A model generated the notes under the pieces. The model had not been told where the DNA came from. It did not search any database and was given only the letters and a program-made list of their open reading frames with translations. A stretch of DNA of 64,000 nt from Verrucomicrobiota bacterium. Its GTDB lineage: Bacteria > Verrucomicrobiota > Verrucomicrobiia > Opitutales > UBA2995. The translations under genes and the position numbers were made by a program. Positions 21,426 through 59,383 of this stretch are shown here, piece by piece (position 1 is the first letter of the stretch; every line of letters starts with the position of its first letter). The stretch lies in the NCBI GenBank assembly GCA_027622555.1, contig JAQBYJ010000002.1, positions 62,001-126,000 of the forward strand. Reading direction: 5' to 3'.

Positions 21426-21442
21426 ACTTCTTTCGAAGAAAT

Positions 21443-21510
21443 GTAGGAGCCAGCTTGCTGGCGAAGCAGAAATTCTTTATATTTTATATCGCCAGCAAGC
21501 TGGCTCCTAC
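21443..21510. repeat. Inverted REP pair, copy 4 (perfect arms)
   Basis: A 22-base unit, GTAGGAGCCAGC then TTGCTGGCGA, at 21443-21464 is repeated exactly in reverse complement at 21489-21510, with a 24-base AT-rich spacer. The identical unit recurs at 28708-28729. As RNA the pair would form a 22-bp hairpin between two genes in the same direction, so it could also limit readthrough or protect the upstream mRNA from 3' decay. Confidence 0.88.
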
Positions 21511-21626
21511 AAAACTAATATCGAAAGTCACCTTATATTTTACACAAACAGTTAAGTAGCTGCAATTTGCATATCCGTTAAAAATCCTCTTCCCCTGAAC
21601 GAACTCTTTAAATACATCTGACACCT

Positions 21627-25891: not shown

Positions 25892-25933
25892 TTGAAACTC
25901 ACCGACGCAAGCATCGGGAGATAACAAGTTTAA
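25892..25933. repeat. Dispersed repeat, 'ATAACAAGTTTAA' family
   Basis: Directly after the asparaginase stop the sequence reads TTGAAACTCACCGACGCAAG, CATCGGGAG, then ATAACAAGTTTAA. CCGACGC/GCATCGG forms a short hairpin. Related copies are at 28565-28599, 28741-28798 and 59241-59296. Confidence 0.7.
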
Positions 25934-25941
25934 ATATTTAA

Positions 25942-27719: not shown

Positions 27720-28445
27720 ATGTTTTGCATTTCAATGAACAAGTTTATGAAAAGTAACTTATATCTCAGTATTCTGGCTTATATCTCAATTCAATCCTGG
27801 CTTACGGCGGAGGAACTGGTCTGGAAAGATCTACTCAACGGCAGAGACCTAACCGGATGGCTGGACGTTAATACCAGCCCGGAGACCTGGTATTTTGAAG
27901 ATGGATTACTAAAATGCAAAGGTATGCCCATTGGTGTCATGCGATCCGAGAAGCAGTATGAAAACTTCATTCTGGAAATTGAGTGGCGTCATATGGAGGA
28001 CGGAGGAAACTCCGGGATTTTCTTATGGAGCGAAGGAACACCTGCTCCAGGTAAAGATCTACCGAAGGGCATGGAAACCCAAATGCTGGAACTTTCCTAT
28101 TCGAAAATGCATGACAGGCATCCGGGCTATGTAAGTGGAGAATTGTTCGGCGCAAATGGCCTGACCGTCATTCCAGATAATCCGCGCGGGCCACGCAGTA
28201 TGTCTGTTGAATACCGATGCAAACCTAAGGGTGAGTGGAATAGCTATGTGGTCGTAGCCGTGGACGGTGTGGTCAAACTCTCAATCAATGGAAAGTTTGT
28301 GAACGGTATTCGAGAGGCTTCCGTTAAAAAGGGCTATTTGTGTCTTGAATCCGAAGGCGCAGAAATTCATTTCCGCAACATGAGAATCATGGAGCTTCCA
28401 GCCGGAATGACGACGCCTGAGCAGACGGCGCCTTTGGTGGAATAA
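27720..28445 (+). CDS. Exported DUF1080 (3-keto-disaccharide hydrolase-like) protein
   Basis: A 241-residue exported protein with a single DUF1080 domain (PF06439): [51 protein letters not shown] and [11 protein letters not shown]. Members studied in Bacteroides hydrolyse 3-keto-glycosides. The jelly roll follows a signal peptide ([20 protein letters not shown]). Three closely spaced ATGs (27720, 27735, 27747) could be the start; the last gives the most typical signal. It completes the set of dehydrogenase, epimerase, ThuA and DUF1080 genes in this region. Confidence 0.87.
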
Positions 28446-28471
28446 GGGAGTTGGTTTAGACAAATAAAGAA

Positions 28472-28542
28472 GCCGCATTGCGAGGACGCAATGGCTCTAC
28501 CTTTTTAACTTGAATCGGACGGCTCGGCGATCCGTCCCTACC
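28472..28542. repeat. Two short palindromic repeats of different families
   Basis: The first has a perfect stem ATTGCG-AGGA-CGCAAT (28477-28492) ending in GGCTCTAC. The second has GGACGG (28517-28522) and CCGTCC (28532-28537) around CTCGGCGAT, ending in CTACC. Both end in a GTAG-type head when read on the minus strand, like the main REP family, but their stems differ. Confidence 0.6.
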
Positions 28543-28564
28543 CTATAATAGTTCCGGAAGAAAA

Positions 28565-28599
28565 TGAAACTCCCCGACGCAAGCATCTGGGTATCTGAA
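28565..28599. repeat. Dispersed repeat fragment, related to 25892 copy
   Basis: TGAAACTCCCCGACGCAAGC then ATCTGGGTATC matches the copy at 25892-25933 through GAAACTC-CCGACGCAAGCATC and then diverges before the ATAACAAG tail. Confidence 0.55.
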
Positions 28600-28663
28600 A
28601 TAGAAGAACAAGCTCTTTTCACTTTTGCTCGCAAGAATCCAGCAGACATGTTTGGTATTCGAT

Positions 28664-28729
28664 TGGCGACCAAGGTCACTCCTACAGATACTTTCGCGTG
28701 TCAAAATGTAGGAGCCAGCTTGCTGGCGA
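28664..28729. repeat. Inverted REP pair, copy 6, with unlike arms
   Basis: The minus unit at 28664-28685 is GTAGGAGTGACC then TTGGTCGCCA. The plus unit at 28708-28729 is GTAGGAGCCAGC then TTGCTGGCGA. The plus unit is identical to both arms at 21443-21510. In this pair the outward-facing units have different stems, unlike copies 3 and 4, so it may be assembled from two separate REPs. Confidence 0.75.
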
Positions 28730-28740
28730 TCTCCGCGATT

Positions 28741-28798
28741 TCAAACTTTCCCATCAGTCACCGACCCCGCGGCAAGACCACGGGGGATAACAAGTTAA
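28741..28798. repeat. Dispersed repeat, 'ATAACAAGTTTAA' family (long form)
   Basis: Begins TCAAACTTTCCCATCAGTCA, passes through CCGACCCCGCGGCAAG and ends GGGGGATAACAAGTT. Over the first 35 bases it agrees with the copy at 59241 at 31 positions, and both continue into ATAACAAGTT. CCCCG/CGGGG can pair as a hairpin. Confidence 0.75.
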
Positions 28799-28817
28799 AA
28801 CAGTTTGGAAATGCTCT

Positions 28818-30440
28818 TTAACTTGGGGGTGGTTGCCAGTTATGAGAATCCGTAAAAGGTGGATGTTCAAACCGAACCGGATCTTCGATGACTCGAGGAT
28901 CCTTCTCAGAAATCAAGGTGTTCATGAGTTCCCTACTTAGCTTAAGCTTGATAGCCTGGTAATTCGCTTCTTCGGCAACATTGTTCATGTAGTCCGGATC
29001 TGTTCGAAGATCGAACAGCTCCTCCGCGGGACGTTTGGCAAAAGCATAGTCGTAATAGATTCGATTTTCAGGTTCGTTTCGATGCTCGATCACCCAAGCT
29101 TTTGTCGGACTGGCATCCAGGTCACCGAAAGTGATAAAAGTATTACCTGCCAATGCATCCCATTCCGGGGTACTTGTATCAGTCACTTCACCGGGCGAAC
29201 CCATGGGCCAGCGGTCCGGTTCAAAATTACGAATGTAGAGAAAATCTTTGGTGCGAATGGCCCGCTGCGGATAAGGCAAAAGCCCTTCGCGCGCAGCAGC
29301 GACATGACGTTCCCGTCCCACCACGACTGAATCGCGTTGGTCGTCAATCTGCCCTGATTCCTTCGAAAGAAATAAGGGCATAAGATCGCGTTCAGACATT
29401 CCTTCAGGAACGGCCGTTTGTCCGGCCTTCAAGAATGTCGGAGCCAGCTCTAACAAGTTTACGAAGTCGTCAATAATTCGCCCTGCTTTTATCTTAGCTG
29501 GCCAACGAGCAGCCAAAGTAACTTCAGTTCCCAAGTCGTAGAGATTACATTTCCCTCGAGGGATTCCGGGAATGCCGTGATCGCCGCTTATGACAACCAG
29601 CGTATTGTCCAATTCACCCATATCCTCCAGTTTCTTTAATAGGATCCCGATTCCCGCATCCACCGCCAGACACTCACCCAGGTAATCATTTACATCTTCA
29701 CGAACTTCATGGGTATCGGGTAAAAACGGCGGCAAGCGGCCTTTCAATTTGTCGGGATCCAAGCCCCAAATGTCTTTGCCTGAACCCTTGATCCATTTGC
29801 GGTGAGTATTGGTCGGACCCCACCAATAACAAAAGGGCTGGCCTTCCTCACGGTCTCCAATGAATGCGTCGAAATTCTTCCGGACTTCCTCGTAAAGTTC
29901 TTCTTTGGCCTTCTCAACACCGACCTGAGGTGCCTTGGCCGAAGTATATTGGGAAAAGCGGTTAAAATTCGTACCACCTTGATGGTAAGCCGTTCGCCCG
30001 GCTCCATAAGGGGCGTTTGTCGGCGTACCGGGTGTCCATACCTTATAAGCATAGCCGATATGATATCCGGTTTTTTCCAGCTCTAAAGGATAAGACGGAA
30101 TCTCAGGATCCCATACAGCTCCCTGAAGAATGGCTGCTCGCCCAGTATTCCAAAAATAACGGCCCGATAGGAGTGAACTTCGACAGGGAGTACAACTTGG
30201 AGCAGGAACAAAGGCATTACTAAATAAGGCCCCTTCATTGGCCACTCGGTCAAAGTTCGGTGTATTGATCAAGGCATTGATCGATTGAGGACCTTCGACC
30301 TTCTCATAAGCACTTGCATAACGACCCCAATCATCGGCAAACAAAAATACTATATTGGGACGATCATCCCCAGAAAGAAAACCGGATGCAGTGACCATAA
30401 ATAAAAAAAGAATACGGGGTATTTTCATTGGTATGGGCAC
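28818..30440 (-). CDS. Exported type I sulfatase
   Basis: A 540-residue arylsulfatase-family protein that removes sulfate esters, probably from polysaccharide. Signal peptide MKIPRILFLFMVTASGFLSG precedes RPNIVFLFADDWGR, whose D36-D37 bind calcium. The formylglycine motif is C83-T-P-C-R87 followed by SSLLSGRY. HGIP and KCNLYDLGTEV supply further active-site residues. The second Cys inside the motif is tolerated in the C-x-P-x-R consensus. Either of two ATGs (30440, 30428) could be used. Maturation needs a formylglycine-generating enzyme encoded elsewhere. The adjacent leftward gene at 30454 lies 13 bases upstream. Confidence 0.92.
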   Translation of the reverse strand: MPIPMKIPRILFLFMVTASGFLSGDDRPNIVFLFADDWGRYASAYEKVEGPQSINALINTPNFDRVANEGALFSNAFVPAPSCTPCRSSLLSGRYFWNTGRAAILQGAVWDPEIPSYPLELEKTGYHIGYAYKVWTPGTPTNAPYGAGRTAYHQGGTNFNRFSQYTSAKAPQVGVEKAKEELYEEVRKNFDAFIGDREEGQPFCYWWGPTNTHRKWIKGSGKDIWGLDPDKLKGRLPPFLPDTHEVREDVNDYLGECLAVDAGIGILLKKLEDMGELDNTLVVISGDHGIPGIPRGKCNLYDLGTEVTLAARWPAKIKAGRIIDDFVNLLELAPTFLKAGQTAVPEGMSERDLMPLFLSKESGQIDDQRDSVVVGRERHVAAAREGLLPYPQRAIRTKDFLYIRNFEPDRWPMGSPGEVTDTSTPEWDALAGNTFITFGDLDASPTKAWVIEHRNEPENRIYYDYAFAKRPAEELFDLRTDPDYMNNVAEEANYQAIKLKLSRELMNTLISEKDPRVIEDPVRFEHPPFTDSHNWQPPPS

Positions 30441-58946: not shown

Positions 58947-59383
58947 TTTGGGCTGAGCCAGCACTTCAGGACTTGGATGCTATTGCAGATTACATTGCAC
59001 TGGATGATCCAACCGCAGCGACAGGCCTGGTAAGAAAAGTATTTGAGAGAGTCGACCAACTTGTCAGTTTTCCGGAAACGGGAACTCATCCGAGAGAGCT
59101 GAAAGGAACTCCGTATAGAAAGCTGACGGTGAGACCCGTTCTGATCTACTACAGGCTCGAAAATCAAAAAGTAATAATCGTCCATGTCGTAAGGGGAGAA
59201 CGTAAATTCAGCCTAAACCGTTTTGAAGACCCTGCGGTTTTCAAACTTTCCCTTCAGTCATCGATCCCGTGGCAAACACAGGAAATAACAAGTTTAATCT
59301 TCTCTTGGCCACCAAAGTGCGCCTTCGGCGAGTGGCCGAACGATTTGGGCTGCTATGCGCATTGGCCCACGAGGCAGCTCTAG
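58934..59383 (+). CDS. parE: ParE-type toxin with read-through C-terminal tail
   Basis: RelE/ParE superfamily toxin, probably acting on gyrase or the ribosome. The core of about 95 residues is normal: VVWAEPALQDLDAIADYIAL, LVSFPETGTHPRELKG, YRKLTVRPVLIYYRLENQKV and VIIVHVVRGER. The family usually ends near residue 98, but here the frame continues for about 50 residues. The extra part is encoded by the dispersed repeat at 59241-59296 and then by the antisense of the IlvD/Edd gene end, so the tail is almost certainly not ancestral. Confidence 0.8.
   Translation: MAQVVWAEPALQDLDAIADYIALDDPTAATGLVRKVFERVDQLVSFPETGTHPRELKGTPYRKLTVRPVLIYYRLENQKVIIVHVVRGERKFSLNRFEDPAVFKLSLQSSIPWQTQEITSLIFSWPPKCAFGEWPNDLGCYAHWPTRQL
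59241..59296. repeat. Dispersed repeat, 'ATAACAAGTTTAA' family, inside the parE frame
   Basis: TCAAACTTTCCCTTCAGTCA, TCGATCCCGTGGCAAACAC, then ATAACAAGTTTAA. It matches the 28741 copy at 31 of its first 35 bases. Its end supplies the TAA stop (minus strand, 59294-59296) of the IlvD/Edd gene, and its body fills the 3' extension of parE. Insertion exactly at the junction of two convergent genes is typical of intergenic repeats. Confidence 0.75.

Follow-up and report, generated by a model that had tools for sequence, protein, structure and literature searches.

The window analysed here, a stretch of 64,000 nucleotides from a Verrucomicrobiota bacterium, contains at 28446–28817 a spacer flanked by two convergent genes: one for a protein with a 3-keto-disaccharide hydrolase domain (27720–28445, + strand) and one for a sulfatase (28818–30440, − strand). 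A search of the whole genome (6.0 Mb in 238 contigs) splits this spacer into three units, namely a REP of class B, a REP of class C and an element of about 240 bp with a left end (LE), a right end (RE) and a pair of REPs in between (Table 1). An earlier note on this DNA had listed five motifs in the spacer and sorted them into kinds of short repeat. All five were located in the sequence, but the sorting has to be revised: genome matches and alignment make GACGCAAGC, the REP pair and ATAACAAG parts of one element, and the two palindromes listed first belong to two classes of REP, giving three units instead of five. The stack looks like three separate insertions of small mobile DNA. A search of the window with Rfam gave no family above its gathering score.

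Table 1. Features of the spacer at 28446–28817 (window coordinates) and of the autonomous IS on contig C67 (contig coordinates)
Feature	Position	Strand	Remarks
ATTGCG-AGGA-CGCAAT palindrome	28477–28492		Within the class B REP
GGACGG...CCGTCC palindrome	28517–28537		Within the class C REP
GACGCAAGC	28576–28584		Within the RE of the 240-bp element
Outward REP pair, unlike arms	28664–28686 and 28707–28729		Middle of the 240-bp element
ATAACAAG	28787–28794		Within the LE of the 240-bp element
Class B GTAG REP (GTAGAGCCATTGCGTCCTCGCAATGC...)	28472–28500	−	GTAGGGCNNNNGCGTCCNCGC pattern with one mismatch; holds the ATTGCG palindrome
Class C GTAG REP (GTAGGGACGGATCGCCGAGCCGTCC)	28517–28541	−	Exact pattern match; is the GGACGG palindrome
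IS200-derived non-autonomous element (MITE/PATE-like), about 240 bp	28562–28801	− (transposase-sense)	Terminal bases approximate
RE: hairpin (28572–28591), then GTTTCAT (28564–28570)	28564–28591	−	Holds GACGCAAGC; from alignment and hairpin tables
Internal REP 1 (GTAGGAGTGACCTTGGTCGC)	28664–28686	−	Counterpart in 15 of 15 aligned copies
Internal REP 2, class A (GTAGGAGCCAGCTTGCTGGCGA)	28707–28729	+	One of 74 class A pattern matches genome-wide
LE: hairpin CCCCGTGGTCTTGCCGCGGGG (28765–28785), with TTTAACTTGTTATC 5' of the hairpin (28786–28799)	28765–28799	−	Holds ATAACAAG; one of 25 LE flanks compared
Autonomous IS, LE match	C67:10922–10982
Autonomous IS, transposase domain	C67:11051–11413
Autonomous IS, RE match	C67:11462–11504

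The 240-bp stretch has 15 long matches in the genome, the window copy included; ten of these run end to end, two nearly so (L007 and L009), and three are without the LE side (L011–L013). The other 14 copies are 78–95% identical to that in the window. In an alignment of all 15, the two ends appear as ATGAAAC-hairpin-TATCTGAAAT and hairpin-AATAACAAGTTNAA, beyond which the flanks cannot be aligned. Because these 15 best matches cover it and their flanks fail to align, 28562–28801 constitutes one dispersed element. Some variation is apparent in the loop of internal REP 2, where four of the long copies (L010, L012, L014 and L015) have about 24 extra bases (GTATTCCTTGAGCTTGTCGAAGTG). A second subfamily is represented in the same genome by 13 copies or parts, with different hairpin letters and a REP pair whose arms are nearly alike; the window copy is mixed, combining a first-type RE hairpin with an LE hairpin of the second type. 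Both subfamilies contain a REP pair. Two further traces of the family were observed in the window: an isolated LE-like end from this IS200 family (ACCGACGCAAGCATCGGGAGATAACAAGTT) at 25900–25934, just before a ThuA-domain gene, and a match to the LE part of the element only at 59239–59297, in a spacer called convergent by our script.

There is no transposase gene inside the element. The only open frame of at least 80 residues within it (85 residues, 28564–28821) was rejected as a gene: it has no Pfam match and is built from the element, although gene callers may list it as a hypothetical protein. On contig C67, the same two ends bound an intact gene for a TnpA of 147 residues, which scores 120.6 bits with the NCBIfam IS200/IS605 transposase model (cut-off 55) and 109 bits with PF01797. 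This protein is of the single-domain HUH Y1 type with an HVH motif, and it matches solved transposases including ISHp608. Five further contigs start or stop inside an IS of the C67 type, with 67–69 bases identical to its ends (three at the LE and two at the RE), and these breaks suggest that the genome carries several near-identical autonomous copies. Since both of its ends are common to an intact IS200/IS605 transposase element, 28562–28801 is, as judged from its sequence, an IS200-derived non-autonomous element (MITE/PATE).

Both ends of the element present subterminal hairpins of the CCCCG...CGGGG type on the same strand, and terminal inverted repeats are absent. Across 25 LE flanks, comprising 19 distinct hairpins, Watson–Crick pairs occupy 162 of 200 stem cells, a count that is partly imposed, because the outer bases and AAC were preset in the search pattern and the script picked the best-pairing foot. 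Stem position 6 is TG, AT, TA or CG in 21 of the 25, and position 7 is GC, TG or GT in 19; the copies are related by descent, such that these changes are not independent. The G–T wobbles are distributed very unequally, with 22 on the TnpA-sense strand versus 4 on the other strand at the LE (18 versus 4 over the 19 distinct hairpins) and 8 versus 1 in 11 RE flanks; the counts were repeated with a scoring that ignores wobbles. It is thus chiefly in the transposase-sense strand that pairing has been preserved, which is what a single-strand mechanism of the IS200/IS605 kind would require. The recognition of subterminal secondary structures is described in the excerpt of PMC6006769.

Not all of the hairpins are perfect. 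In the autonomous IS copies, T–T mismatches occur at stem positions 6 and 7 of the LE hairpin, and the RE hairpin of the window copy has one stem mismatch. When single-strand folding was compared with shuffles, the RE of the window copy was no better (z −0.14) and its LE slightly better (z −1.29); given that its ends fold little or no better than shuffled sequence, this copy may have decayed. Adjacent to the LE hairpin, TTNAAC is found in 22 of the 25 flanks, the TT lying three bases before an AAC that was itself fixed by the search pattern.

The remaining components of the spacer belong to a different kind of repeat. Classes A, B and C all show a GTAG tag beside an imperfect palindrome in many copies, as expected of REPs: with one mismatch allowed, their patterns match 74, 86 and 102 times genome-wide, respectively, and the backwards patterns not at all. 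The second REP of the pair has four matches in the window at up to three mismatches, itself included, versus none in 100 shuffles. The GACGCAAGC motif alone is at chance level in the window, with two matches to its 13-base form for 1.4 expected. Elsewhere in the window, at 21442–21511, there is a class A pair in the reverse arrangement, with the GTAG ends outside and identical arms.

Genes of the RAYT type are also encoded in this genome. The RAYT-like protein at L042 (169 residues) scores 78.7 bits, just below the NCBIfam RAYT cut-off of 80, and its relative at L037 (55% identity) scores 98.8 bits against the same cut-off. On each side of L042 is an outward AGCTTGCT/ACCTTGGT REP pair, of the same type and in the same order as that in the MITE, with one arm of these flanking pairs bearing GTGG in place of GTAG. 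Class C REPs lie on both flanks of a RAYT-like gene fragment in L049; for class B, there were zero matches in the fetched flanks of 21 Y1_Tnp loci. Palindrome pairs on both sides of the RAYT gene at L037 (1180–2080) resemble, by eye, a further REP class. Additionally, a set of Y1_Tnp proteins of about 270–340 residues from the same genome (L032–L036, L038, L040 and L041) have no GTAG REPs in their fetched flanks.

REP pairs are found mostly apart from the MITE. Seven outward class A pairs outside recognized MITEs were fetched, and in six of these the match to the MITE, spacer length included, is confined to the REPs themselves plus a few bases at most. The other, L229 (G000:C95:6680–7080), continues on a single side for 31 bases into sequence like that of the MITE. 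The notion that stand-alone class A pairs are unrelated to the MITE interior was dropped, as L229 matches 31 bases beyond the REPs, and a shared origin of the two is possible.

Three congeners (G001, G003 and G005) retain the gene pair, in convergent orientation and with proteins 76–83% identical, around spacers of about 150–470 bases without the element. An exact empty site was sought in the spacers of these congeners and was not found; the spacers are unalignable. That the same gap is free of the large element in three congeners bears out the suggestion of the earlier note that non-autonomous elements have come to lie between the two stop codons. In G005, a class B palindrome is seen in the same spacer, with a further change in its tag; it may be shared by descent or may have arrived twice. 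A search of 53 genomes detected related sequence in the genome of origin, in the congeners G002 and G005 (one weak match), and in G014 and G037, which represent other families of the same order. Both subfamilies have relatives in G002 that enclose REP pairs; one of these relatives has an interrupted LE hairpin and no recognized RE.

We consider it highly probable that the spacer has gathered HUH/Y1-dependent elements, that is, two single REPs of different classes plus an IS200-derived MITE of about 240 bp around a REP pair, the latter moved in trans, and that these were kept by tolerance. The MITE retains both hairpin ends of an intact IS200-type element found in this genome and lacks the transposase gene, and it was most likely moved in trans by TnpA. 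The transposase would fold the hairpins on the transposase-sense strand and cut beside them, and the single strand would then be pasted beside a short target, presumably the TT-rich site on the LE side. In the order of events that we infer, the MITE captured a REPIN or was built around one, because its inner REP pair is laid out like the pairs on either side of a RAYT-like gene in the same genome. Retention of the copy would be explained if the gap between two stop codons tolerates insertions. Directly observed are the structure and copy number of the unit, the ends it shares with the IS, the conservation of pairing and its absence from the congeners; trans mobilization, choice of strand, order of events and tolerance are deduced. 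It is conceivable, if doubtful, that the MITE is in addition a nested, doubly mobile element, excised by TnpA via its outer hairpins and carrying a REPIN that is copied by a RAYT; two related single-strand transposases would then provide two routes for one sequence, and the MITE would seed new REPs. The L229 pair resembles what such a MITE would release or leave over.

The gene context of the elements was assessed against a background of 864 kb of the 6.0 Mb, made up of the window, which lies on C2, and forty 20-kb stretches taken from 20 contigs (bases 20001–60000 of C1, C3–C20 and C22, without C21). This background contains 279 spacers of 100 bases or longer. Genes were the longest open frames chosen by a script and not taken from annotation, and a repeat was counted only if it had a second copy in the same 864 kb, such that repeat content is underestimated for all spacers. 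The spacer at 28446–28817 ranks 6th of the 279 by repeat bases and 13th by fraction, and the claim that it is richer in repeats than other spacers thus narrowly survives. Its repeat fraction is matched or exceeded in seven of the 37 convergent spacers, this one among them, and its load is therefore high but not unique.

The most durable of the competing explanations is a true hotspot, in which elements would seek convergent gene ends, for example via exposed single strands or hairpins, as opposed to merely surviving there; nevertheless, we regard it as unlikely. It derives its appeal from the 25 copies of the element family that entered the context test, of which 12 lie between convergent genes, 11 between tandem genes and 2 between divergent genes, compared with 37, 164 and 78, respectively, of the 279 background spacers, where the convergent share is 13%. 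This gives P = 2.8 × 10−5, a value that mixes thresholds (80 residues for the copies and 100 for the background); with equal gene thresholds of 80, 100 and 120 residues, P is 8.7 × 10−6, 1.7 × 10−5 and 4.6 × 10−4, respectively. Moreover, if the spacer at 28446–28817 is excluded, 7 of 36 convergent spacers are at least half repeat versus 17 of the other 242 (P = 0.023), but the frequency of any repeat is no higher in convergent spacers (10/36 versus 57/242; P = 0.68). The excess also shrinks if copies are assumed simply to follow gene 3' ends, with P values of 0.017, 0.019 and 0.083 at 80, 100 and 120 residues, and of 0.06 for the 15 long copies only. The test covered 25 of 30 loci, leaving out L022, L025, L028 and L029 (contig ends) and L030 (the autonomous IS), and there was no callable gene on one side for one of the 25 copies at 100 residues and for three at 120. 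Three of the 25 have a frame of at least 100 residues across the insertion site when the flanks are joined, and may represent insertions into a gene. The class A pattern gave 12 matches in the gene-context test, eight tandem and four convergent, with two of the latter in the spacer at 28446–28817. Much of the convergent pattern would arise if the copies simply avoided genes and promoters. A convergent trend is already known for REPs, which, according to the excerpt of PMC3733652, are located mainly between tandem and convergent genes. The data do not demonstrate targeting to a preferred landing site of the kind proposed in the earlier note.

Somewhat less likely again is the possibility that the hairpins serve the two convergent genes as a bidirectional transcript end, a role also raised there, or as an mRNA 3' stabilizer, and were kept for that purpose. 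Several palindromes do lie between the stop codons. The fold of the class B REP is better than that of 200 of 200 shuffles, a T-rich stretch follows this REP on the − strand, and a palindrome of its class recurs in the spacer of one congener. However, a search for intrinsic terminators (a GC-rich hairpin directly followed by a T run) found a single site for 0.6 expected, which is chance level, and the congeners retain the gene pair with other spacer contents and without the element. It is very improbable that a RAYT moves the 240-bp unit through the REP pair with the IS200-like ends as passengers, for although the pair occurs in both subfamilies, RAYT-like genes with flanking REPs are present and L229, otherwise a stand-alone pair, is adjoined on one side by 31 MITE-like bases, the repeat boundaries coincide with the IS200 ends and not with the REPs, and six of seven stand-alone outward pairs stop matching the MITE at or close to the REPs.

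Taken with the preferred reading, that of HUH/Y1-dependent elements accumulated in a tolerant gap, the spacer is an unusual combination of known parts and not a new system, and the finding is mostly ordinary. What may be new is the nesting, with IS200 ends around a REP pair of RAYT type, in two subfamilies and with relatives in another species; no IS200-derived MITE enclosing a REP pair was found in the titles and opening lines of abstracts that the literature search covered, which is weak evidence of novelty. One small DNA unit here joins two halves of the Y1 HUH world, the mobile IS200 elements and the RAYT/REP systems. If TnpA moves a unit that carries REPs, then REPs could spread without a RAYT of their own, and their dissemination is called poorly understood in the excerpt of PMC8266576.

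The closest known counterparts of the outer part of the element are the PATEs, ends-only derivatives of IS200/IS605 (PMC7290912, in excerpt), with which it shares palindromic ends, the absence of an intact transposase gene and autonomous relatives in the genome; the PATE-like sequence described in that excerpt has a tnpB remnant between its ends, whereas the element described here has a RAYT-type GTAG REP pair in that position. The inner part corresponds to the GTAG REPs, REP dimers or REPINs and their RAYTs, as they are presented in the excerpts of PMC3733652 and PMC2817692 (see also PMC3116915), in its tag, its imperfect palindromes and its pairs in opposite orientation, as well as in the RAYT-like gene flanked by REPs and the location mainly between tandem and convergent genes. 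It differs from these systems, so far as the excerpts describe them, in that the REP pair is inside an IS200-derived unit that is itself repeated. Opitutus terrae, from the same phylum, is described as highly enriched in GTAG repeats in the excerpt of PMC3733652. Finally, an IS and REPs are also found together in the case of ISPpu9 (PMC8450116, in excerpt), but in the converse arrangement: there, the IS is inserted within a REP, whereas here the REPs are within an IS-derived element.
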